Positions 10,688-22,638 of a stretch of DNA of 46,177 nt are shown one piece after another. The notes beneath the pieces were generated by a model, which saw nothing but the letters and a program-made list of their open reading frames with translations, was not told the DNA's origin and did no database searches. Origin of the DNA: Citreicoccus inhibens (GTDB lineage: Bacteria; Myxococcota; Myxococcia; Myxococcales; Myxococcaceae); assembly GCF_019039035.1 (NCBI RefSeq), contig NZ_JAHNZT010000049.1, forward strand, positions 1 through 46,177, given 5' to 3'. Position 1 is the first letter of the stretch, and the number at the start of each line of letters is the position of its first letter. Both the position numbers and the translations under genes were made by a program.

Positions 10688-13600
10688 CTACTTGTCCAGC
10701 TCGTCCACCAGGGCGGTCCAGTCATCCTCTCCGGCGGCGGGGCTGGTGGGCAGCTGCATCACCACCGTGCGGTCCGACGGCTCCTCCAGGTCCTCGCCGA
10801 GCGGTACGGGCTGCGGCGGGGGCTGAGGCGCGGCCTTCTTCGCCGCCGGGGCCGCCGCGGGCTTGGCGGCGGCGGGCCTGGCGGGCGCCTTGGCCGGGGT
10901 GGGCGCAGCGGCGGGGACCACCGGGTTGAGCTGGGTGCGCAGCTCGGCATCGCCCTCGTCCGGGACGGGCGCGGGCGTCTTGCTCACGGCGGCCTTGGCG
11001 GCCGGGGCGGGCGTGGCGGCAGCGGCGGGGGCCTTGCTCTTGTAGCGAGCCAGCTCCAGCTCGGCGACCTTGAGCGCCTTGCTCTTCTCCTGCACGGACT
11101 GCTGCAGGCGCGCGACCTCCTGGGCCTTGATGGCGTCGCGGCGCTCCAGCTCCGCCTTCTGCTTGGCGGACTGCTCCTCCAACTCCTTGAGCTGGCGGGC
11201 CTCCAGGTCCTTGCGCTCCTTCTGTGCCGTGGCGAGCCGCGCGGCGGTCTCCGTGGCCTTGCTCTCGGCGGCGGAGACGCGGGTGGTCAGCTCCTTCTCG
11301 ACGCGGACCTTGCCGCTCTGCGCGTTTTCGACGGCCAGCTCCAGGTCCTGGATCTTCTTCACGCGGGCCGCGAGCTGTCCCTGGACGTCCTTGAGCTTGG
11401 TGTCGGCCTCGGCGGCGCGAGCCTGGGCCTCCTGGCCGAGCTGCGCGATGCGCTGCTCCGCCTTGGCGAGCTTCGCGGCGAGGTCATCCGCGTGCTTCTT
11501 CGCCTCGCCAGCGGCGGCCTGGGCCTGCTGCGCCTGCTGCTGGCTGCGCGCCTCGGCCTGCTGGAGCTGGCCCGCGATGCCGTCGCGCTCCGCGACCAGC
11601 CGCGCCTGGGCCTGCGACGCGCCCTGGAGCTGCCCGTCGCGCTCGGCGATGACCTTGCGCGCGGTGTCCAGTTCGCCCGAGACGCCCGAGAGCTGCTGGC
11701 CCATGGCGTCCGCGTGCTTCTTCGCATCGGCGGCCTGGGCCTGGAGCCTTCCCTCGAGCTGCTTGAGCTGCTCGGTGCGGGTGGCCACCTCGCGGTTGAG
11801 CACCTCGCCCTGGCGCATCTTCTCCTGGGTGACCTGAGTGAGCTTGCGGAGCGTGTCGGACAGCTCCTTGCCCTTGGTGGTCAGGTCGTTCTGGAGCAGC
11901 TCCTCTCGGCGCTGCGACTCGTTGGTGAGCGCGTGGTGGCGCTCCTCGAGGTCGTGACGCGCGTCCTCGGACTGGGCCAGCGAGGAGGTGAGGCGCGTGA
12001 CCTCGGCGACGCGCTCACCCAGTTCGTGCTTGGTGACGATGAGCTGCTCGGCCAGGTCCTCGCCGTGGGCCTGGGCCTCGGCGAGCTGTCCTTCGAGCGC
12101 GGCCTGGGCGCTGGCGGCCTGCTGACGGGAGGTGACGTGCGCCTGCTGCTCGTGGGCCAGGGCGTCCCGCGTGGCCGCGAGCTGTCCCTGCGTCTCGGCG
12201 AGTTGGCGCGACGTGGCGTCCAGCTCGGACACCAGCCCATCGCGCTCGCCCGTGAGGGCCTGGATCTGAGCGCTCGTTTCTTCCGCCAGTCGGGCGTGCG
12301 CGGCCCGTTCGGCCTCGTAGTTCCCCTGCGTCTCCGACAGCTCGGCGCGAAGCTGACCGATCTGCCCGGTCAGCTCCTGCTCCAGCTCGTTCTTCGCCTG
12401 GCCGAGCGCCTGCAACTCGGCGATGCGCGCGTTGCGCTCCTGGGTGGTGCGCGCCAGGGAGTCGTTTGTCTCCTGGAGGGCGCCGCGCGTGTCGTTCAGC
12501 TCCGCGTCCAGCGCGTCCCGCTGCTGGGTGGTGGTGGCGAGCTGCTCGCGGGTCTGCTCCAGCGCTCCCTGGGTCTGCGCCAGCGTCTGGCTGGTGGCGT
12601 CCAGCTCCCCGCGCGTCTCTGCGAGCGTCGCTTCCGTGCTCGCCAGGGTGGCCTGGGTGTCCGCCAGCGTCTGCTCGGTGCTGGCGAGCGTGCCCTGCGT
12701 CTGTGCCAGGGTGTGCTCGGTGCGGGAGAGCGTCTCCTGGGTCTGCGCCAGCGTCTGGCTGGTGGCGTCTAGCTCGCCGCGGGTGCTGGACAGCGCCTCC
12801 TCGGTCTGGCCCAGCCGGGTCTGCGTCTCCGCGAGCTGCTGGCTGGTGGCCTCCAACTCGCCGCGTGTCTCGGCGAGGGTGGCTTCCGTGCTGGAGAGCG
12901 TGGCCTGGGTGTCCGCCAGCGTCTGGCTCGTGGCTTCGAGGTTGCCGGTCAGCTCGGCGATGCGCGCGTCGCGTCCGGCGACGTCCGCCTGGAGCCCCTC
13001 GACGGTGGCGTCGCGCTGGGCGACGGTGTCCTCGAGCGAGGCCACGCGCGCCTGGAGCTGCTCACCCTGCTGCTGAGAGGCCTCGAGCTGCTCGGTGAGC
13101 GCCTGGATCTGTCCGGTGAGGTCGGCCTCCTGGGCCTCCTTCGCCGCGCGCAGCTCCTGGAGCTGGCCCGTGAGGTCCTGCTCCAGCGCGTCCTTCGCAT
13201 CCTGGAGCGCCTGGAGGCGGCCCTGGAGGTCTTGGATCTGCCCGGTGAGGTCCTGCTCCAGCTCGTTCTTCGCCTGGCCGAGCGCTTCCAGCTCGCCCGT
13301 GAGTTCGGCCTCGCGGTCCGCGAGGTGGGCCTTGATGGCCTCGACCTCGCCCTCCAGCTCGCCGATGCGCTCCAGGTGCTGCTGGATGGTCGAGTTGAGG
13401 TCGGCCTCGTGGTTCTCGTTGCGGGTGATGGTCTCCGCCAGCTCGCGCTCGAGCGAGGAGATCTTCGAGTCCCGCTCCTCGACGCGCTGGGTGAGCTCCG
13501 CCTCCTGCGCGTCCTTGTCCAGCTTGAGTTGATCGCGCTCGCCCGTGGTGCGAGACAGGTCGCCCTCGAGGTCCGCGACCTGCTGCGTGAGGCGCTGCTC

Positions 13601-14974
13601 GAGCGCGGCGCGCTCGGCATTGAGGCGTTCGATCTCCGCGTCGGAGCGAGCGGCGTGCTCCTCGGCGGTGGCCGAGCGCGTCTCCAGGCCGCGGACCGTG
13701 TCGTCGCGCTCCTGCTCGGTGCGCCGCAGCTGCTCCTGCACGGCCTGCAACTCGCCGGTCAGCTCGGCGTAGCGCTGATCCCGCTCGCCGATGGTGCGAC
13801 CCAGCTCGGACTCGAGCCCATCGCCGCGCTCGCGCAGGCGGGCGATCTCCGCCTCATGGGCGCGCCCGGTCTCCTGGAGACCTTGCTCCTTGACCTCGAA
13901 CTCGAGCGTGACGACGCCGAGGTGCTTCTCCAGCTTGTCGTACTCGCCATTGAGGCGGTCGATCTCCGCGGCCCGGCGCCCGAGTTCGTCGTCGCGGTTG
14001 TGGACCTCCTTGCGAAGGACGTTGATGTCCTTCTCCTTGGAGGCGACGACCTCGATGAGGTCCTTCTCCGCGGAGAACTTCTGCAGGAGCAGGTCGTCCA
14101 CCGTGGCGCCGTGCTCGCGCTCCTTCTGGACGATGGACTGTTGGGCGTCGTTGAAGCGACGCAGCAGATCATCCACCTGCATCTTGAGGCCCTGCAGCTC
14201 CACGTCCTTCTCGTGGAGGCGGTCCTCGACGGACAGGAGCTCGCGCTCGCGCACGCTCCAGATCTCCGAGAGGCGAGCGAGCTGGGCCTCGCGCCCCTTC
14301 AGCTCGTCGCGGAGGATCTGGATCTTCCCTTCCGGCGTGCCCATCAACTCGCGGCGCGGGGGCGGGCGCTTGAGCTGGCGCGACTCGGCGAGCAGCTCCG
14401 CCTTGCGGTCCGCGATGGACTGGAAGGCGCGGTCCATGAACGCGCGATCCTCGTCGGTGATCGCGCTGCGGCGCTCGCGCTTGGGCAGGCGAGGGGGGCC
14501 GCCCGCGTTGGTGCGCAGCGGCGGCGGCATGGGCGGCGGAGACTCGCGCGGGGCGTTCCCGTTGAGCGCCGCGTCCAGCGAGTCATCCGACTCCTCGCTC
14601 CCGGGCGTGACGATGCCGGCACTCATCGAGGCCAGCTCGCCCATCTCGAAGGGGATGACGAGGTAGCCGTCGGCCGCGCCTTGCGTCTGACGGTGTTGGT
14701 TCAGCCCCTCCACACCCGTATCGGAGGAGAGCAGGAGGACCTTGAGGTTCTGGCCCCACTTGCCCTTCTTGATCTGCCCGCAGAGGGTGAACCCGGACTG
14801 ATCCGGCAGCTCCGCGCGAACGACGACCAGATCAGGCCGGCGCTTCTCCAACTCGCGTTGAGCGTCCGCGGACGTCGCCGCCATGGCCGTCTGGTAGCCC
14901 GCGCTTTTGAGCACGGTGGCCATGCTGAGGGCGAAGTCGTTCTGGCTTTCGACGATGAGGACCCGACGCTCCAT
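10688..14974 (-). CDS. aglZ: AglZ-type gliding motility protein: pseudo-receiver plus giant coiled coil
   Basis: 1,428 residues; M. xanthus AglZ, as I recall it, is about 1,400 residues with the same plan. Residues 1-120 are a receiver fold without phosphorylation chemistry: the acidic pocket is reduced to E9, the phospho-acceptor site is Arg53 (DLVVVRAELPD), and the usual KP switch is IP (LVIPF). A linker with paired acidic residues follows, then roughly 1,100 residues of continuous coiled coil (200-1310). Part of this is built of near-identical units such as TLAQTQ and TLASTE. The last 110 residues are Ala/Pro-rich and end in an acidic DEPSDRTVVMQLP-like/DDWTALVDELDK segment. AglZ is a cytoplasmic filament-forming scaffold that binds MglA and organises A-motility complexes. 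FrzS has the same plan but is much shorter. Confidence 0.85.
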   Translation of the reverse strand: MERRVLIVESQNDFALSMATVLKSAGYQTAMAATSADAQRELEKRRPDLVVVRAELPDQSGFTLCGQIKKGKWGQNLKVLLLSSDTGVEGLNQHRQTQGAADGYLVIPFEMGELASMSAGIVTPGSEESDDSLDAALNGNAPRESPPPMPPPLRTNAGGPPRLPKRERRSAITDEDRAFMDRAFQSIADRKAELLAESRQLKRPPPRRELMGTPEGKIQILRDELKGREAQLARLSEIWSVRERELLSVEDRLHEKDVELQGLKMQVDDLLRRFNDAQQSIVQKEREHGATVDDLLLQKFSAEKDLIEVVASKEKDINVLRKEVHNRDDELGRRAAEIDRLNGEYDKLEKHLGVVTLEFEVKEQGLQETGRAHEAEIARLRERGDGLESELGRTIGERDQRYAELTGELQAVQEQLRRTEQERDDTVRGLETRSATAEEHAARSDAEIERLNAERAALEQRLTQQVADLEGDLSRTTGERDQLKLDKDAQEAELTQRVEERDSKISSLERELAETITRNENHEADLNSTIQQHLERIGELEGEVEAIKAHLADREAELTGELEALGQAKNELEQDLTGQIQDLQGRLQALQDAKDALEQDLTGQLQELRAAKEAQEADLTGQIQALTEQLEASQQQGEQLQARVASLEDTVAQRDATVEGLQADVAGRDARIAELTGNLEATSQTLADTQATLSSTEATLAETRGELEATSQQLAETQTRLGQTEEALSSTRGELDATSQTLAQTQETLSRTEHTLAQTQGTLASTEQTLADTQATLASTEATLAETRGELDATSQTLAQTQGALEQTREQLATTTQQRDALDAELNDTRGALQETNDSLARTTQERNARIAELQALGQAKNELEQELTGQIGQLRAELSETQGNYEAERAAHARLAEETSAQIQALTGERDGLVSELDATSRQLAETQGQLAATRDALAHEQQAHVTSRQQAASAQAALEGQLAEAQAHGEDLAEQLIVTKHELGERVAEVTRLTSSLAQSEDARHDLEERHHALTNESQRREELLQNDLTTKGKELSDTLRKLTQVTQEKMRQGEVLNREVATRTEQLKQLEGRLQAQAADAKKHADAMGQQLSGVSGELDTARKVIAERDGQLQGASQAQARLVAERDGIAGQLQQAEARSQQQAQQAQAAAGEAKKHADDLAAKLAKAEQRIAQLGQEAQARAAEADTKLKDVQGQLAARVKKIQDLELAVENAQSGKVRVEKELTTRVSAAESKATETAARLATAQKERKDLEARQLKELEEQSAKQKAELERRDAIKAQEVARLQQSVQEKSKALKVAELELARYKSKAPAAAATPAPAAKAAVSKTPAPVPDEGDAELRTQLNPVVPAAAPTPAKAPARPAAAKPAAAPAAKKAAPQPPPQPVPLGEDLEEPSDRTVVMQLPTSPAAGEDDWTALVDELDK

Positions 14975-15037
14975 GAAGCCCTTGACCCAGCAAAAAGTGC
15001 AGTGAAAACCGGAACATCCTACCGGCCGGCAGCAAGC

Positions 15038-15054
15038 CTTGGAAAGTTTCCAAG
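15038..15054. promoter_or_regulatory. Perfect 17-bp palindrome upstream of aglZ
   Basis: CTTGGAAAGTTTCCAAG is a perfect palindrome around one central base, lying in the 99-base gap between the glycosyltransferase stop and the aglZ start, 64 bases before the latter. It could be an operator or a short hairpin (7 bp, 3-base loop) ending the glycosyltransferase transcript; no T-run follows. It shares the ten bases TTCCAAGCGT with the palindrome at 5307-5322. Confidence 0.4.
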
Positions 15055-15073
15055 CGTCGCTCGGTTGGCTGCC

Positions 15074-18000
15074 TCACGAGTTGCGGCCACGGACCGGACC
15101 TTCAGGGCCGGGATCCGAGGCGCCCCGAGGCGTTTGCGGGCCGTCATCCCGCCCGGGGAACGTCGTGGGCGGGGTGTGCCGAGCAAAGCGGGTTCCCTCA
15201 GGAGGGCAGTAGCCGTGGGCGAGCTGGGCGAACCAGGCGTTGAGGGCCGAGGGTGGAGGCTCGGGCGAAGGCCCTTCGTCATCCAGCTCGGCGTCCTCGT
15301 GCGTGGCGTCGGCCTCCAATACCTCGTCGGCGCTGATCTCCTCGGGCTCGTCGCCTCGGCCGCGCGCGGACAGCGGGGAGACCTCGTCGAGCTCCTCATC
15401 CTCCAGCGGTTGGGCGTCTGACGACGAGATCTCCTCGGGCTCGTCGTCCGCGGGCGTGTAGGTGCGCAGCGAGGCCTTGAGGACCGGCGGAGTGGCGGGA
15501 CGGGACGACAGGTCCACCGGCGAGAGCCGGGGAGGGGGCTGGCGGGGAGGAACGGGCGGCGGTGCCGTGGCGCGCGGGGGGAGCGGGGGCGGGCGATCCG
15601 TGTCCGAGAGACTGCCGCCTCGGATGGGGGCCTTGCCCGACTCGAAGAGGACGGGGATGCGGGTCGAGGCCGTGCGAGGGGGCTCCGCGACGGGCAGTCC
15701 CCCGCGAATGGGCGGTCGGTCCGTGTCCGACACGGTGTTCAGCCGAGGCGGAGTGGGGCGCTCCGTGTCGGTGACGCGCGCGGGATCCGGGCTGCGCGGT
15801 GGAAGGGCCGGGAAGGCCCCGGTCGAAGCGGTTCGCGGCGGCTCCGTCTTCGTTGTCCCGCGGCTCGGCACGAGGGAGCGCATCGGGACGATGGGGGTCG
15901 GGGCCGGCGGCTCGTGGTCGTCGACCCACGCGGCCGAGGGGCGCTCAGGCGTCGTCGGACCGCGGGCGGGCGACGGAGGCGGCGGCTCGTCGCGGTCCGA
16001 GGGGCTTGCTCGCCGAGAAGGGGGCTCGTCGCCACGCTCCAGCGAGGCCGGCCGGCGGACGATGGGCGTGGGGGAGTCCGCCTCGCGCTCCGCGGAGCCC
16101 GGCTTGCGGACGATGGGGGTGGGGGCGGGCGGCTCCTCGTCTCGCTCGATGGACGGAGACTTGCGCGCACCGGTGTCCTCCGCGTTGCGCGCGGCGATCT
16201 CGGGCGGCGTCGGTCGACGAACCGTGAGTGCGTCGTCGTCGCGCTCGACGCGGCTGGGCGATGCGGTTCTCCGAGGCGCGTCGTCTTCGCGTTCAGGTCG
16301 GCCTGCGGTGGTCAGCCCGCGAACGGCACCATCTTCGTCACGCTGCGAATCTTCGAGACCCAGCGGGCGCCGGACGATGGGCGTGGGCGACGGCGCGTCA
16401 CCTTCGCGTGCCGCATCGTCACTGGAGTTCGCGCGTCGCCTGCTGCTCGTGGCCTGCGAGGTGTCGCGGTCCTCTGGCGGGTCTTCGAGCCCGAGCGGTC
16501 GGCGGACGATGGGGGTCGGAGACGGCGAGTCCTCCTCGCGCTGCGAATGATCCGTCCGCCTCCGACGGTGCCCGTTCGAGAGAGACGAAGCCCCGGGCTC
16601 GCGCTGCGGCTCATCGAGACCCAGAGGCCGGCGAACGATGGGCGTGGGCGACGGCGATTCCTCGTCGCGAGATGCGCTGCTTGAGGAGCGCGAGCGGTGG
16701 TTGCCGCTCCTGGGCGATAGGCCCTCGCGCTCGCTCGGCCGATCCTCGAGGCCGTGGGGACGGCGAACGATGGGAGTCGGGGAGGGGGCCTCATCCTCGT
16801 GCGCGGAGGTCGTGGTGCTCAGCGCGCTTCGCAGCTGCGCTGCATTGGCGGGGACCTCATCCTCGTGCCCAGAGCCCGAGTCATTCGGTCCGCTTCGCTG
16901 CTGCGCTGCATTGGCGGGGACTTCATCCTCGTGCCCAGAGCCCGAGTCATTCGGTCCACTTCGCTGCGTCGCTGCGCGGGCTGGCGCTTCACTGTGGCTC
17001 AGGGATTCCGCGTCATTCAGCGCGCTTCGCTGCGGCGCAGCACGGGATCGACCTTCATCATCGCTCGGGGCAGCTGCAGTGGTGTTCGCGCTTTGCTGAA
17101 CCGATGACTGGGACGAGGCTTCGTCGTCCCTCAGGGATGCGGTGTCATTCAGCGCGCTTCGCTGGGTCGCAGCGCGGGTGTGAGGTTCATCGTCGCTCGG
17201 AGCGGCTGCGGTGGTGTTCGCGCCTCGCTGACTCGCTGAACGGGACGAAGCCTCGTCGTCTCGCTCAGCGAGCCCAGGTTCCTCGGATTGCCGAGCGATG
17301 CGCTCGGATGCTTGCGCCGCATCCTCACGGTGGAGGGTGTTCGTGGAGTCAGCGTGCTGGCCGTCGTTCGCGAGTGACGCTGCGGCCTGTTCGTTCCGCG
17401 CGTCTTCGGAGTTCGATGAACGCTGAACCGTGGACGGAGGCGATCCTGCTTCGTCGCTGTGCTCTTGGTCGTCTCTGCCGTGCGTCCTAGGGGGGAGCGA
17501 CGCGTCATCCTGGAGTTGCGCACGCTCGCCTGCGGCGTCCTGCGAAGAGGCCGACGCGTCCTCGTGTTGTGCGCTCTCTCCACTGTGTGACTTCAGGAGA
17601 TTCGCGGCAGCGTCGCGGGTCTTCGGGTTCGTCCCCGCATCGCTGGCCTGTGCCCGCGCGGTGGAGCCGGAGGCGTTGTCTTCTGAGGTCGAACCCAGAC
17701 GCTCAGGCAGCGGACGCAAGCTGGTCGCGGGTGCCTCGGCCGAGGCGTTGCCGGGAGCTGTGCCGGCCACTGTTCCGGTGTCGACTTCTCCACGGTGATT
17801 CGTGGCGACAGCGCCGTTGTTGTCCGGGGCCGCTGCGGTGGTTGGCCCGAGGGTGCTTGCCTTGGGCTCGCTGCTCCCTGGCACGGCAGGAAGCTCCACC
17901 TTCGACGTCGTGCGCGCGGAGACGGCGACATCGACTGCGGACGCGGTGCGTGCCGGGGCCGACTTCGGCGCGGTCGGCTCCTCGACGAGCAGGCTCGCGT

Positions 18001-19531
18001 CGCGCGGAGTCTTGTCCGGTGCGGTGGGAATGGGGCTCACCGTCGTGGCGGCCTCATCGGAGGGTTCCTCCCTGAGCGGGAGCCCCATCACGACGGGCGG
18101 CTCGGCCGGGCGGGCGTCTGGCTCCGTCTTCACGAGCCGACGATCGAGGCGCTCCTCCACCACCTGACCCACCACGATGGGCGCGGCCTCGCGTGCCTCC
18201 TGGGCCGCATCCAGGGTCTGGTTTCGCGGCGCGGCGGGGCTGGGCGCGGACGACTCGACGGAAGGCTCCGAGACTCCCAGCAGCGCCAACCGGTTGGTGG
18301 GCGTCCCCGTCATCGTGACGTCGGGGAGCGACTCACTGGAGTCGCCGGTCGGGCGCGGCCCGCGCTTCTCCAGCAGCCCGTCGTAGAGATCGAGGAGCCG
18401 GCCTCGGATGCGCCCCGCTTCCAGCGCGGTCTCCGCATGCGCTCGTGCCGCTCGGCCCAATGCCAGCCGCCGAGGAACATCCCGCGCCAACTCGATGATC
18501 CGATCCGCCATCGCGCGGACATCCCCAGGCGCGAAGAACACAGCCGCGCTCGAGGGGATGAGCTCGCGAGTGACGGGCAGCTCCGCGGCGATGACCGGGC
18601 GCCCCGCGGCCAGGTACTCGGACACCTTCGCCAAGGGCCCGCCCTGCATCCGGTTGCGCTCGGAGTCGTCGAGCGGCAGCACGCCCACGTCCGCCAGCGC
18701 GAGCACCTTGGCCAGGTCGTCATGCGCGACCGGTGGCTGGAACTCCACGAGGTCCTGGAGGCCCTGCTCCCGCACCAGATCCTCCAGGTGCGGTTTCCAA
18801 TCCGGATGCTGGGCGCCCACCAGCGTGAGGCGCACGGGCTCCTGCTTCGCGGCGAGGGCCGTGGCGCGCAGCAGCAGGGGCAATCCCTGCCAGCCCACCT
18901 GACTCCCCAGGTACATCATGCGCAGCGGCTTGCCGTCCGGGAGCCCCACCACGCTCGGGGCATACGGCGTCAGGTCCACCGGCGCGCGGAGGACCCGGAC
19001 CTGCTCCTCCGCCGCACCAAGCCCTTGGATGAAGCTCCGAGTCGTCTGCGAGCCGGTGATGACGAGGTCGGCGTTCATCAGGCAGAACAACTCCTGACGC
19101 CGCACCTTGGAGAGGAAGCGCCGATCGCCCTCCAACTGCGGATGGGTGAAGCGGAGCTCCTGCGACGGGAACGTCTGCGCCTCGTAGATGAGGCGATAGC
19201 CGTAGTCGCCCTTCAGCTCGCACAGCGCATAGCCGCCGAAGGGGTCCGTGAAGTGGGCGAGTGCGTAGTCCTCGCTCTCCAATTGGCGGCGTACCGCGCG
19301 CTCGAAGGCTTGGATTCGCGACGCGAGGTCCCCCGAGCCCACCGGCACGCGCAGCAGCCGCGCGCCCTGGTACTTCTCGATGTGGGAGTGGTCTGGCGTC
19401 TTGGCGGAGAGCACGACCACGGTGAAGCGGTCGGGCAATGCCTTGAGATACTCCGTCAATCGACGCGAGGAGCCCGACGGACCCGGAATCACGTCGAAGC
19501 TGCACAGGAGGAGTCTGGGCAGGTCGCTCAA
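15074..19531 (-). CDS. GT4 glycosyltransferase with ~1,090-residue disordered repeat tail
   Basis: 1,485 residues. Residues 1-390 are a complete GT-B fold, family 4: an N-terminal half with PGPSGSSRRL, the linker GSQTTRSFI, and a C-terminal half with LGSQVGWQGLPLLLRA, LVGAQHPDW and PLAKVSEYLAAGRPVIA. Glu305 is the second Glu of the EX7E motif and the first is Gly, as in some GT4 subgroups. Everything after about 390 is predicted disordered: Ser/Ala/Asp/Glu-rich stretches, about seven PTPIVRRP-type repeats (roughly 920-1215), proline-rich segments, and a very acidic end. A normal GT4 stops at about 390. Neighbours are aglZ downstream and a divergent DUF4912/GH57 pair. The enzyme should move a sugar from a nucleotide donor to a glucan or surface polysaccharide; substrate unknown. 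The tail may tether or cluster it. Confidence 0.85.
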   Translation of the reverse strand: MSDLPRLLLCSFDVIPGPSGSSRRLTEYLKALPDRFTVVVLSAKTPDHSHIEKYQGARLLRVPVGSGDLASRIQAFERAVRRQLESEDYALAHFTDPFGGYALCELKGDYGYRLIYEAQTFPSQELRFTHPQLEGDRRFLSKVRRQELFCLMNADLVITGSQTTRSFIQGLGAAEEQVRVLRAPVDLTPYAPSVVGLPDGKPLRMMYLGSQVGWQGLPLLLRATALAAKQEPVRLTLVGAQHPDWKPHLEDLVREQGLQDLVEFQPPVAHDDLAKVLALADVGVLPLDDSERNRMQGGPLAKVSEYLAAGRPVIAAELPVTRELIPSSAAVFFAPGDVRAMADRIIELARDVPRRLALGRAARAHAETALEAGRIRGRLLDLYDGLLEKRGPRPTGDSSESLPDVTMTGTPTNRLALLGVSEPSVESSAPSPAAPRNQTLDAAQEAREAAPIVVGQVVEERLDRRLVKTEPDARPAEPPVVMGLPLREEPSDEAATTVSPIPTAPDKTPRDASLLVEEPTAPKSAPARTASAVDVAVSARTTSKVELPAVPGSSEPKASTLGPTTAAAPDNNGAVATNHRGEVDTGTVAGTAPGNASAEAPATSLRPLPERLGSTSEDNASGSTARAQASDAGTNPKTRDAAANLLKSHSGESAQHEDASASSQDAAGERAQLQDDASLPPRTHGRDDQEHSDEAGSPPSTVQRSSNSEDARNEQAAASLANDGQHADSTNTLHREDAAQASERIARQSEEPGLAERDDEASSRSASQRGANTTAAAPSDDEPHTRAATQRSALNDTASLRDDEASSQSSVQQSANTTAAAPSDDEGRSRAAPQRSALNDAESLSHSEAPARAATQRSGPNDSGSGHEDEVPANAAQQRSGPNDSGSGHEDEVPANAAQLRSALSTTTSAHEDEAPSPTPIVRRPHGLEDRPSEREGLSPRSGNHRSRSSSSASRDEESPSPTPIVRRPLGLDEPQREPGASSLSNGHRRRRTDHSQREEDSPSPTPIVRRPLGLEDPPEDRDTSQATSSRRRANSSDDAAREGDAPSPTPIVRRPLGLEDSQRDEDGAVRGLTTAGRPEREDDAPRRTASPSRVERDDDALTVRRPTPPEIAARNAEDTGARKSPSIERDEEPPAPTPIVRKPGSAEREADSPTPIVRRPASLERGDEPPSRRASPSDRDEPPPPSPARGPTTPERPSAAWVDDHEPPAPTPIVPMRSLVPSRGTTKTEPPRTASTGAFPALPPRSPDPARVTDTERPTPPRLNTVSDTDRPPIRGGLPVAEPPRTASTRIPVLFESGKAPIRGGSLSDTDRPPPLPPRATAPPPVPPRQPPPRLSPVDLSSRPATPPVLKASLRTYTPADDEPEEISSSDAQPLEDEELDEVSPLSARGRGDEPEEISADEVLEADATHEDAELDDEGPSPEPPPSALNAWFAQLAHGYCPPEGTRFARHTPPTTFPGRDDGPQTPRGASDPGPEGPVRGRNS
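15885..16785 (-). repeat. Array of seven PTPIVRRP-coding repeats in the glycosyltransferase tail
   Basis: Seven dispersed copies of a short unit appear at about 15888, 16053, 16104, 16371, 16501, 16630 and 16757. On the + strand each reads close to CGGACGATGGGCGTGGG, encoding (S/A)PTPIVRRP on the reverse strand. The four right-hand copies have the extended form SPTPIVRRPxGLE and near-even spacing of about 130 bases (43 residues). The remaining copies are shorter and diverged. Confidence 0.8.
16824..16955 (-). repeat. 66-bp tandem duplication inside the glycosyltransferase tail
   Basis: Two adjacent 66-base units differ at only a few positions and encode the 22-residue unit RSGPNDSGSGHEDEVPANAAQ(Q/L) twice. 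Diverged relatives (APARAATQ, SAHEDEAPS) flank them. Because 66 is a multiple of three the frame is kept. Confidence 0.85.
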
Positions 19532-19663
19532 GCGGGGCGCAGGATACCGGGACGTTTCCTAGGTGTCATGGGGGACGGATGAAGAAGCGGGGTCCGCAGA
19601 CCAACACATGTAGTGCTGACACGTTGACCCTCCGCGTGCCGCGACCTAAAGGCGAGGGTGTCC

Positions 19664-21019
19664 ATGGACCACCTCAAGCGTGTCACCGTGAGCTACCTTC
19701 GAGAGCTGGCTCGGAAGCACCTCGGCCCTGGCCACCGCAAGAAGAACAAGCAGCAGCTCATCGCGGCACTCGCGGCCTATGTCCCGGTCCTGGCTCGGCT
19801 GGTGCGCAGTGCCGGAGGGAGCCTCCTGCCGCGGCTCGAAGCGGCCAGGGACGCCATCCGCCGCAAGGCCCGAAGAAAGTCCCAGAAGCGGACCGATGCC
19901 TCGTCACAGAGTGCCGGGGCTGGTGAGACCCAGGACCTGGACAGCACGGCGGAGCAAGACTCCGGTTCCACAGGCGGTGTCGAGAAAGCGCGGACGCAGA
20001 CCGACACGGCTCGTGGCGTCGCGACCACCAAGCCGGCCCACGTCGTGAATTTTCCACCCAGGCTGCGCGGGCATCCCACGGCATCGGGCGCCACGCGTGG
20101 GCAGGAGTCCCTCTCCGCGACTGAAGAGGTCGCCGCGCAGGTCGCTGCCGTGGAGCCGCCACAGCACCCAGCCGAGCCCTTGGTGGAGGGCTTCTTCGTC
20201 GCGCGAGTCGCGGGCGAGCGCGAGGCGCGTCGGCATCATCTGTTGGAGGAGCAGGCCAGGTGGTTGCCGCCCGCGGACCAGTCCTCCGAGTACGACGAGC
20301 ATCTGGGCGAGCTGCCGCTGGACTACGAGGACGATACGGCGCTGCTGATGCCGCGCGACCCTCATACGCTGTTCGTGTTCTGGGACTTCAGCGCCGCCAC
20401 CCGCGCACGCGCCTTGGAGGGCTTGGACGCTCCCCGCGCGGTGCTCAAGGTGTTCGAGGGTGAACAGCTCGTGCGCGAGGTGGAGTTCGCCCTGGAGTCT
20501 CGCAGCTTCTACATCCACGGGCTTCCTCCGGGGCGGCCCTATCGTGTGGAGGCGCACTTCATCGCGAAGGATGGCAGTGGGCGCCGGATTGGGGGCTCGA
20601 CGAACCGCGTGGTGCTGCCGCCCTCGGGGCCGTCCTCGGACACCTCGGTGCGCTTCCTGCGCATGCCGACGGGCTTCGAGGCCGCGCGGAGTGACATGGC
20701 GGAGACCGCGGCCACCGCGCACACTCGCACCGCCGAGTTCGAGGAGCGCGAGTACATCCGCTGGCGCCGAGTCCAACTGCCCGGCAGCTCGGGGGCGCTG
20801 GACATCCCCGAGCTTGAGCGGGAGCGCATCGCGCGCGCTGTCCCACCGCAGTCCTCCGGTCCCGGTGTGCCCACCGAGTCGATGCCTCGTGGACCGGGCG
20901 CATCGGATCAGCGCTACCTGAGCGGCGTCGCGCGGCCTCCCGGCGCGTCGGATCAGCGCTACGCGCGCTCCGAGAAGGAAACCCCCGAGCCAACGCCCTC
21001 TGGGCGTGGCCGCACGTGA
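19664..21019 (+). CDS. DUF4912-domain protein with SAP/Rho-N-like N-terminus
   Basis: 451 residues from the ATG at 19664; an in-frame GTG two codons earlier is equally possible. Residues 8-50 form a helix-extension-helix element (VSYLRELARKH, KKNKQQLIAALA) like SAP or Rho-N motifs, which often bind nucleic acid or proteins. A 150-residue basic and then polar linker follows. Residues 217-335 match DUF4912: LPRDPHTLFVFWDFS-type core, VLKVFEGE, FYIHGLPPGRPYRVEAHF. This domain looks like an immunoglobulin-like or carbohydrate-binding beta fold and, as I recall, sits next to GH57 and GT4 genes in many bacteria. The C-terminus carries two GASDQRY repeats. Its stop overlaps the start of the GH57 gene (GTGA), so they are coupled. 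Function is likely a helper in glucan metabolism. Confidence 0.85.
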   Translation: MDHLKRVTVSYLRELARKHLGPGHRKKNKQQLIAALAAYVPVLARLVRSAGGSLLPRLEAARDAIRRKARRKSQKRTDASSQSAGAGETQDLDSTAEQDSGSTGGVEKARTQTDTARGVATTKPAHVVNFPPRLRGHPTASGATRGQESLSATEEVAAQVAAVEPPQHPAEPLVEGFFVARVAGEREARRHHLLEEQARWLPPADQSSEYDEHLGELPLDYEDDTALLMPRDPHTLFVFWDFSAATRARALEGLDAPRAVLKVFEGEQLVREVEFALESRSFYIHGLPPGRPYRVEAHFIAKDGSGRRIGGSTNRVVLPPSGPSSDTSVRFLRMPTGFEAARSDMAETAATAHTRTAEFEEREYIRWRRVQLPGSSGALDIPELERERIARAVPPQSSGPGVPTESMPRGPGASDQRYLSGVARPPGASDQRYARSEKETPEPTPSGRGRT

Positions 21020-22638
21020 ACCTCCAAGGACACCCAGAACGACCTATGAGCCCGGGCTCCCTCGCGCTGGTCCTGCACGCGCACCTTCCCTTCGTTCGCC
21101 ATCCCGAGCACGAGAACTTCCTCGAGGAGGACTGGCTCTACGAAGCCATCTCCGAGACGTACCTCCCGCTCTTGAGGGTCTTCGACTCGCTGGCCGACGA
21201 GGGCGTTGCGTTCCGTCTCTCGATGACGCTGTCGCCCACGCTCGTCACCATGCTGCGCGACGAGTTGCTGATGTCGCGCTACGCCCGGAAGCTCGACCAG
21301 CTCTGCGAGCTGGGCGCTCGGGAAGTGCACCGCACGCGCGATGACCCCACGTTCGGTCGACTGGCTCGCTTCTATCGCGACCACTTCGAGTCCCTGCGCG
21401 TCCTCTTTCGCGAGCGCTATCGGCGCGACCTCGTGGGCGCGTTCCGTCGACTCCAGGACGCGGGCCACCTGGAGATCCTCACCTGCAACGCGACCCATGG
21501 GTTCCTGCCGCTGATGCAGCAGACGCCCGAGGCCGTGCGCGCGCAGGTGACGGTGGCGGCCAATCACTATCGCCAGACGTTCGGCAGAGATCCCGCGGGC
21601 ATCTGGTTGGCGGAGTGTGGTTACTTCCCCGGGCTGGAGCGCGTGCTGGCCGCCGAGCGCATCCGCTACTTCTTCGTGGACACGCACGGCCTCACGGACG
21701 CCACGCCTCGACCGCTGCATGGGCCCTACGCGCCCATCTTCACCGAGGCGGGAGTCGCGGCCTACGCACGCGACCCCGAGAGCTCCCAGCAGGTCTGGAG
21801 CACCGAGCACGGGTATCCGGGCGACCCGGACTACCGCGAGTTCTATCGCGACATCGGATGGGACCTGGACCTGGACTACGTCCGGCCCTTCATCCAACCC
21901 ACGGGCGAGCGGAAGAACACGGGCTTCAAGTACTACCGCATCACGGGCAAGACGAACGACAAGCGCCCCTATGAGCCCGACGTCGCGCGCCAGCGTGCCG
22001 CCGTGCACGCGGGCAACTTCCTGTTCAACAGACAGCGCCAGATGGAGTACCTCGCCACGCGAATGGGAGGACGCACGCCCGTCGTCGTCGCGCCGTACGA
22101 TGCGGAGCTGTTTGGCCACTGGTGGTTCGAGGGACCGCACTTCATCGAGGCCCTGCTGCGTCAGGCCGTGCACGCCCGCGAGCAGGTGCGGTTGGTGACA
22201 CCCTCAGATGACCTGCGAGCGCATCCGGAGAATCAAGTGGCCACGCCGCCGCTGTCCTCCTGGGGGGCGGGGGGCTACGCAAACATGTGGCTGGATGGCT
22301 CCAACGATTGGATCTACCGCCACCTGCACCACTGCTCGCGCAAGATGGTGGCGCTTGCCCGAGACTTCCCCGATGCGTCCGAGTTGCGCCGACGCGCGTT
22401 GAACCAGGCCGCGCGTGAACTCCTGCTGGCGCAGTCCTCCGACTGGGCCTTCATCATGAAGACCGGGACCATGGTGGACTATGCGGTCCGGCGCACGCAG
22501 GAGCACCTGCTGCGTTTCCTGCGCCTGCATGATCAGGTGCGCTCGGGCGCCATTGACGAGGGGTGGCTGGCGCACGTGGAGGGGCGGGACAACTTGTTCC
22601 CGGAGCTGGACTACCGGGTGTACCGGCCCGCGGGGTGA
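21016..22638 (+). CDS. GH57-family (DUF1957) 1,4-alpha-glucan branching-type enzyme
   Basis: 540 residues from the GTG overlapping the upstream stop; an ATG at 21046 is an alternative and leaves the conserved start SLALVLHAHLPFVRHPEH. GH57 features: the His-rich first strand (HAHLPF, 21-26), the nucleophile in WLAECGY (E200), the proton donor in APYDAELFGHWWFEG (D362), and the helical C-terminal domain with SSDWAFIMKTG. This is the layout of GH57 branching enzymes, which form alpha-1,6 branches in glycogen-like glucans in the cytoplasm. The flexible catalytic loop usually carrying a Tyr is not obvious, so amylase or transferase variants remain possible. It is coupled to the DUF4912 gene and divergent from the GT4 gene. 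Confidence 0.9.
   Translation: MNLQGHPERPMSPGSLALVLHAHLPFVRHPEHENFLEEDWLYEAISETYLPLLRVFDSLADEGVAFRLSMTLSPTLVTMLRDELLMSRYARKLDQLCELGAREVHRTRDDPTFGRLARFYRDHFESLRVLFRERYRRDLVGAFRRLQDAGHLEILTCNATHGFLPLMQQTPEAVRAQVTVAANHYRQTFGRDPAGIWLAECGYFPGLERVLAAERIRYFFVDTHGLTDATPRPLHGPYAPIFTEAGVAAYARDPESSQQVWSTEHGYPGDPDYREFYRDIGWDLDLDYVRPFIQPTGERKNTGFKYYRITGKTNDKRPYEPDVARQRAAVHAGNFLFNRQRQMEYLATRMGGRTPVVVAPYDAELFGHWWFEGPHFIEALLRQAVHAREQVRLVTPSDDLRAHPENQVATPPLSSWGAGGYANMWLDGSNDWIYRHLHHCSRKMVALARDFPDASELRRRALNQAARELLLAQSSDWAFIMKTGTMVDYAVRRTQEHLLRFLRLHDQVRSGAIDEGWLAHVEGRDNLFPELDYRVYRPAG

Follow-up and report, generated by a model that had tools for sequence, protein, structure and literature searches.

Described GT4 glycosyltransferases (MshA, sucrose-phosphate synthase, HepE, PimB' and GlgM) have the Pfam GT4 domains and the GT-B fold in common with the protein considered here. 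A comparable plan is found in FtsZ and SSB, in which a variable disordered linker joins the folded core to a conserved peptide at the C-terminus, and this peptide docks on partners. Of interest here is the way in which gliding myxobacteria couple a motility scaffold to surface polysaccharide. According to passages of PMC12802240, the M. xanthus response regulator EpsW activates the phosphoglycosyl transferase EpsZ; AglZ, as described in part of PMC4546325, binds MglA and co-localises with the Agl-Glt machinery. Together, these reports make a link between a scaffold and a glycosyltransferase plausible.

The window, that is, the whole stretch of Citreicoccus inhibens DNA that was analysed (46,177 nt), carries what appears to be a new arrangement: a GT4-type enzyme whose tether bears a docking-type tip and whose gene has a fixed place next to aglZ (Table 1). 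The host gene occupies 15074-19531 on the minus strand and encodes 1485 aa from a TTG start; M1 of the tailed glycosyltransferase (GT) hardly varies among 34 aligned orthologues. Identity to known GT4 enzymes is 11-23% in the Foldseek list obtained with the model of orthologue L093, and the window protein differs from them in the replacement of the canonical Arg, Lys and first Glu, in its ~1,100-residue tail and in its conserved tip. The likeness to FtsZ and SSB, analogous and not homologous, lies in the three-part plan, the drifting linker and the conserved tip; the fold, however, is unrelated, the cargo is a sugar-transfer domain and the linker reaches ~1,430 residues. As with EpsW and EpsZ, a receiver-domain protein and a sugar transferase of the same bacterial group are involved, but EpsZ is a phosphoglycosyl transferase and not a GT4 enzyme, and EpsW is single-domain and phosphorylated (PMC12802240, in part), whereas the AglZ receiver reportedly lacks a functional phosphorylation site (PMC4546325, in part). 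Of AglZ and FrzS, both treated in that part of PMC4546325, it is aglZ that is the fixed neighbour here.

Table 1. Features of the tailed glycosyltransferase gene and its neighbourhood (window coordinates; aa, residues of the window protein).
Feature	Position	Strand	Basis
aglZ, receiver domain and long coiled coil	10688..14974	-	Pfam Response_reg and coiled-coil-type matches
GT-aglZ spacer (99 nt) with conserved DNA blocks	14975..15073	-	DNA alignment of spacers
Conserved C-terminal peptide around LNAWFAQLAHGYCPPEGTRFARHTPPTTFPGRD	15143..15256	-	orthologue pattern, profile A1, dN/dS
Acidic segment, two EPEEIS motifs (aa 1366, 1397)	15272..15454	-	sequence
Seventh, degenerate copy PTPIVPMR, aa 1211-1218	15878..15901	-	motif count
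Six PTPIVR[RK]P copies, span	16050..16780	-	whole-genome pattern scan
PTPIVR[RK]P copies 4-6	16365-16387, 16101-16123, 16050-16072	-	whole-genome pattern scan
PTPIVR[RK]P copies 1-3	16758-16780, 16626-16648, 16497-16519	-	whole-genome pattern scan
Tandem 66/132-nt repeats (22/44-residue units) in tail	16781..17260	-	repeat search, TRF
PVVMGLPLR linear motif after GT domain, aa 479-487	18071..18097	-	cross-genus pattern comparison
Disordered Pro/Ala/Ser/Arg/acid-rich tail, variable-length tether, aa 389-1485	15077..18367	-	orthologues, pLDDT, dN/dS
GT4-family (GT-B fold) glycosyltransferase domain, aa 1-388	18368..19531	-	Pfam, AlphaFold2, Foldseek, dN/dS
Divergent DUF4912 gene, not universal context	19658..21019	+	Pfam
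GH57 branching-enzyme-like gene, not universal context	21016..22638	+	Pfam, NCBIfam

The earlier note had placed a GT4 domain in the first ~390 residues, and Pfam agrees: Glyco_transf_4 / Glyco_trans_1_4, GT4 models, match at aa 19-187 and 205-351, and four GT4-type models (Glyco_transf_4, Glycos_transf_1 type) exceed the gathering score. In the AlphaFold2 model of L093, the block-mean pLDDT is 77-98 in 38 of the 39 blocks over residues 1-390, the remaining block being at 57. Foldseek with this model gave MshA as the best match (3c4q_B, TMt 0.76, probability 1.00), the nearest folds being MshA, sucrose-phosphate synthase and HepE, which identifies the domain as GT-B. The pLDDT of the L093 tail is mostly <50; its sole helix, at the tip (522-528), has a pLDDT of about 63 and was not ordered on the L093 GT domain.

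The canonical GT4 donor site, which comprises an Arg, a Lys and E-x7-E (positions mapped on HMMER alignments), is mostly replaced: the Arg, Lys and first Glu correspond to S210, Q215 and G297 in 64, 70 and 68 of the 76 aligned sequences, and the second Glu is retained (E305 in 68/76). No relative among the 20 that were aligned, which include the 411-aa paralogue from this genome, carries the canonical Arg and Lys, and parts of a signature of their own (WQG; RN..QG..P.K) recur in many of them. The replacement is thus a trait of the subfamily, from which inactivity does not follow.

The rest of the protein, read in the earlier note as a long, low-complexity disordered tail, is indeed such a tail, of ~1,100 residues in one translated frame. 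Beyond the GT domain, the composition is 14% P, 13% A, 12% S and 17% D+E, and Pfam gave no match in the tail at E 0.001. GC3 in the tail frame is the highest of the three codon positions in 8/10 blocks of 150 codons, the exceptions being a tie in 1051-1200 and a value below position 1 in 751-900; in six orthologue pairs, dN/dS is 0.17-0.39 for the tail and 0.02-0.08 for the GT domain. Codon-position GC and dN/dS therefore indicate that the tail is translated, and they exclude the separate gene or assembly artefact for which the earlier note had allowed.

Clear GT orthologues (>50% identity) occur in 83 genomes of the family, the window's own included, as counted by eye; the GT-domain search matched 96/96 family genomes at E 0.001, but a ~30%-identity paralogue and further GTs contribute to that count. 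A first set of 60 orthologue loci was fetched and a second set gave seven further loci, leaving aside L170 (open end) and L162, L171 and L174 (GT missing from the piece). A tail is present in 60/60 fetched loci and its length in the 59 complete orthologues is 187-1431 aa (median 579). The orthologue comparison proposed earlier thus shows the tail itself to be kept, but neither its length nor the PTPIVRRP repeat. The acidic end noted earlier is also there, a loose EEIS-like pattern being found in 52/59 complete orthologues, but the last ~60 residues also include a distinct conserved peptide.

This peptide has a consensus of ~35 residues, PWFAQLAHGYCPPEGxxFARHTPPTTFPGRD. The pattern W....[LIVMA]..GYCPP....F.R..PPT.[FM]PG lies near the end of 59/59 complete orthologues, with GYCPP 24-48 residues before the last residue, and GYCPP is at the end in 7/7 second-set loci; L095, whose contig stops within the tail, was left out of all tip counts. 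In similarity to the window, the 31-residue tip core surpasses the GT domain at 16 of 17 loci and ties with it in L099 (52%/52%); the alignable mid-tail shows 31-56% in these 17 comparisons, apart from 73% in the congener L059. The tip dN/dS is 0-0.06 in five of six pairs, the sixth value (0.67) being based on few synonymous changes. By dN/dS, by the 17 comparisons and across the 59 complete orthologues, the terminal peptide stays conserved on a linker that drifts.

Profile A1, made for the tip, matches 82/96 family genomes, once in each except for a second, weak match in G075. Outside the family, it matches 2/99 other genomes of the phylum, weakly (E 0.004-0.005); in the window's genome, the host gene has E 6.6e-25 and the runner-up 0.09. 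In fragmented assemblies, the tip may sit on another contig than the GT, and five of the 14 family genomes without an A1 match (G008, G016, G026, G078, G087) are fragmented assemblies with the GT present. Of the others, four (G081, G084-G086) have a nearly tail-less GT beside aglZ, and both GT and tail are gone from G045; no GT orthologue and no aglZ were found in G049 and G082. In G021 and G083, the contigs end beside GH57; 'co-loss' of GT and aglZ was considered for these two and rejected, since the contigs stop <400 nt from GH57 and the missing genes are probably an assembly effect. A scan of 84,980 named species for the tip pattern gave 43 loci, in Myxococcaceae-type genera or MAGs bar one 'Comamonas'. 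Comparison of the tip with the PDB gave two matches (E 0.16-0.19), which are not credible. The record titled 'Comamonas sp. KCTC 72670' (L201, BNCN01000003.1) has this myxobacterial locus, and its title is probably a mislabel.

PTPIV occurs seven times in the window protein (aa 918, 962, 1005, 1049, 1137, 1154 and 1211), as five PTPIVRRP, one PTPIVRKP and one PTPIVPMR. The seven PTPIVRRP-like motifs counted earlier are thus six PTPIVR[RK]P copies and one degenerate copy, far above expectation from shuffling (5,000 tail shuffles gave 5 PTPIV in total, at most one per shuffle). Scanned with a degenerate DNA pattern covering PTP[IVM]VR[RK]P, the 9.05 Mb genome gives six matches, all inside the host gene, and none with the reversed control; the search for other proteins with the motif, which the earlier note had proposed, therefore found none elsewhere in the genome. 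PTPIVP-type copies occur also in genera g19 and g7. Four of the PTPIV copies are 43-44 residues apart, which equals a 129-132 nt DNA repeat, so that part of the repetition is duplication; a 66-nt array directly precedes these four copies in the tail.

The strict form PTP[IVL]V[RK][RK]P is found in 8/60 orthologue loci (L044-L049, L059, L060; two genera) and is missing from 52/60, which does not fit the earlier idea of PTPIVRRP as the conserved docking element. In 71 proteins, the window's included, the relaxed form TP[IV][IV][RK].P occurs at every locus of g1, g5, g19 and g8 and at 3/7 of g7, with 2-11 copies per locus in g1, g5 and g19, 22 loci having 3-11, and ~0 in shuffles; it is missing from the remaining 12 genera of the family, g3 and g6 among them, and from four loci tested outside it. 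Since even the relaxed form is limited to a few genera, the repeat was rejected as a family-wide element: on sequence comparison, the PTPIVRRP-type repeat is lineage-specific, and the universal element of the tail is its end. The commonest mid-tail pattern across genera is the PVVMGLPLR motif, and P[VI]VMG.[PV] is found in 44/59 complete orthologues. In L091 (g10), another, somewhat PVVMGLPL-like tail motif, RPLVAGTPLEALPQPK, is present in six to seven copies; the amplified tail motif thus differs between lineages.

The aglZ gene follows the GT gene immediately and in the same orientation in 59/59 first-set loci that reach that far (L095 stops before it) and in 7/7 second-set loci. The adjacency seen in the earlier note is therefore fixed (66/66 loci) and links the tailed GT genetically to an A-motility gene, although most of these loci come from a single family and do not count as independent. 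The tip locus also adjoins aglZ in 43/43 named records, which overlap with the same species and are likewise not independent; 30 of them carry the GT on the piece, and the other 13 pieces start within the tail or do not extend far enough upstream. The spacer blocks GGAAACTT..CCAAG, TAGGATG and CGGTTTTCACTGCACTTTT are kept in crown genera and perhaps represent a separate aglZ promoter, so the linkage may partly reflect regulation. The DUF4912-GH57 pair was considered as the main context of the gene and rejected: neither gave a match in the fetched 3.5 kb upstream in L092 (g12), L096-L098 (g26) and L101 (g4). L099 (g16) has no DUF4912 match within the fetched 3.5 kb upstream, and L094 and L095 are uninformative on the pair owing to contig ends.

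Part of PMC4546325 gives AglZ of M. xanthus as MXAN_2991 and part of PMC12802240 gives the family-57 hydrolase as MXAN_2994, from which we infer that the counterpart of the tailed GT is MXAN_2992. Locus-tag searches of the open literature found no paper on MXAN_2992 and no experiment on the gene, and a description of a GT upstream of aglZ was not found in the literature searched, though AglZ is known; the available part of PMC7310880 names no MXAN_29xx gene. Identity of the gene with agnA was also considered and rejected, because agnA is gltC, MXAN_2541. By synteny, the GH57 neighbour would correspond to MXAN_2994, named among EpsW-enriched proteins in part of PMC12802240.

Beyond the family, f7 and f8 are two families that likewise have a tailed GT immediately upstream of an aglZ relative (L139-L142), and all four tails carry, 33-39 residues from the end, the related peptides DEWLGHIVFGYAPF, DAWYHSLVLGFAPL, DEWLGHVLLGYAPF and DEWLSHVLLGYAPF. 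Shuffled last 60 residues match this diverged tip (W..hh.GYAPF) 0-2 times in 2,000; a related peptide is found in 4/4 aglZ-linked tailed GTs outside the family and in 0/19 unlinked or tail-less GTs. The expression used in these first comparisons was written after the peptides had been seen, and a profile search in 195 genomes served as a later check. Profile A4, built from the L139-L142 peptides and L184, gave six matches at E 3e-11 or better and all others at E 0.04 or worse; the six are the five source loci, all beside aglZ, and a new one at a contig end in G160. The f11 relatives of the GT (L144-L147, L151, L154), with no aglZ on the piece, have 171-245-residue tails with a recurring [FWY]LLGGPP[FY], so that motif-bearing tail ends may be common throughout the GT subfamily; inspection of their neighbours by eye showed no pattern.

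Tail and enzyme can also occur apart. The aglZ-linked GTs of L155, L158, L159 and L160 are nearly tail-less (26-55 residues), so the tail is not needed for linkage, and they have lost further donor-site residues; in L172 (G045), GT and tail are gone and aglZ is kept. Conversely, G051 (L173) has lost the GT and has, just upstream of aglZ, a 107-residue ORF with LEPWLAQLLQGYCPV, the start of which (MTELRRLLL) resembles the GT start MSDLPRLLL and the codon-position GC of which looks coding. In G158 (L184, f8), a DUF4912-like gene and aglZ flank an acidic ORF that has at most 323 residues and carries EEWLGHVLMGYAPFCV close to its end; in G160 (L245), of the same genus, an acidic ORF of 160 residues containing DEWLGHLLLGYAPFEV lies next to a DUF4912-like gene (both DUF4912-like genes assigned by eye). 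L245 was not used to build A4; aglZ was not found in the G160 assembly, the contig of which stops 262 nt beyond the ORF. Pfam found no domains in the L173 and L184 proteins, and an orthologous GT was not found in the assemblies of G051, G158 and G160, all three of which are draft genomes; G159, of the genus of G158 and G160, retains the GT. The GT has therefore been lost at least twice, and one genus includes two species with the tail only. Of 20 loci with an aglZ relative but no known GT next to it, L184 alone has the tip nearby on that strand.

The explanation we favour, with a probability of about 0.5, is a GT4-family glycosyltransferase, presumably cytoplasmic, held on a long disordered tether whose tip would dock on AglZ or its complex. 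Tether length and repeats evolve fast, the TP[IV]V[RK]xP copies being a lineage-specific multivalent addition. The C-terminal ~35 residues, a short W-containing helix followed by GYCPP...PPTxFPGRD, would be a putative docking peptide that ties the GT to AglZ itself or to a gliding-motility complex containing AglZ; docking would place or time glycosyl transfer with the motility machinery, the enzyme being presumably active and possibly serving polysaccharide synthesis. A bolder form, which we put forward tentatively as possible but doubtful, takes the tip as a dedicated AglZ-docking peptide and the tethered enzyme as a source of local glycosyl transfer at bacterial focal adhesions; the tail and not the GT would be the core of the partnership, because the docking tail is kept where the enzyme is lost. 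Against docking on AglZ stands the persistence of aglZ without the tail in L155, L158, L159, L160 and L172.

The same observation would suit a tip on the same tether that binds a membrane, cytoskeletal or polysaccharide-assembly protein unrelated to AglZ, the neighbourhood being a matter of regulation or history, as would the conserved spacer DNA. In an AlphaFold2 prediction of the tip, the spacer and AglZ 1-250, read through the 99-nt spacer, the tip helix had a pLDDT of about 64 and the pTM was 0.38; judged from these two scores alone, there was no confident placement of the tip on AglZ 1-250. The tip is, however, found only at this locus, other families included, and survives there without the GT, which makes a partner other than AglZ rather unlikely. 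The survival of the tip in three genomes that lost the GT also accords with a GT domain that is a non-catalytic sugar-nucleotide sensor or spent enzyme in a protein acting mainly as an adaptor, a reading compatible with the favoured one; the donor-site replacements in most of the 76 sequences and the further losses in the tail-less forms point the same way. This reading is nevertheless unlikely, the missing Arg and Lys being common to the 20 relatives and the domain dN/dS being very low.

Two other readings turn on the tail itself. The repeat could be its working part, with TPIV (pT-x-x-V) as putative multivalent phospho-Thr sites that an FHA domain, for instance the one in GltG (PglI), would recognise. 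Some FHA domains prefer pT-x-x-[IVL]. PglI/GltG has a cytosolic FHA domain, according to part of PMC3169522, and the relaxed motif is at all g1, g5 and g19 loci; but it is missing in g3, g6 and other genera that retain tail and tip, and a duplicated DNA unit carries several of the copies, so that this role is improbable. Neutral low-complexity growth by tandem duplication would account for the range of tail lengths and the 66/132-nt arrays. The presence of a tail at all 60 loci, its dN/dS of <0.4, the invariance of the tip and the recurrence of motifs in mid-tail speak strongly against it, leaving it very improbable for the tail as a whole; for the tip, it is already unlikely.

If the favoured reading of a tethered GT4 enzyme docking through its tip is true, the protein would stand as a clear example, in bacteria, of an enzyme whose 1,000-residue tether ends in a docking tip. 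The conserved tip beside aglZ, present without the enzyme in three genomes, offers a 35-residue handle on the coupling of motility and polysaccharide.

Decay of the AglZ receiver domain in the absence of the tail was looked for across loci and no consistent pattern was seen. The receiver and the next segment show 40-42% and 72-73% in three g23 loci, 77/81 in L158 and 72/84 in L172; the 20 aglZ relatives that have no known GT beside them, some possibly FrzS-like, resemble the tailed outside loci. AglZ itself also ends in a W-containing peptide: DDWTALVDELDK in the window (10688-10740), EDWNALVDELDK in L172 and DAWTKLLDTLD in L173.
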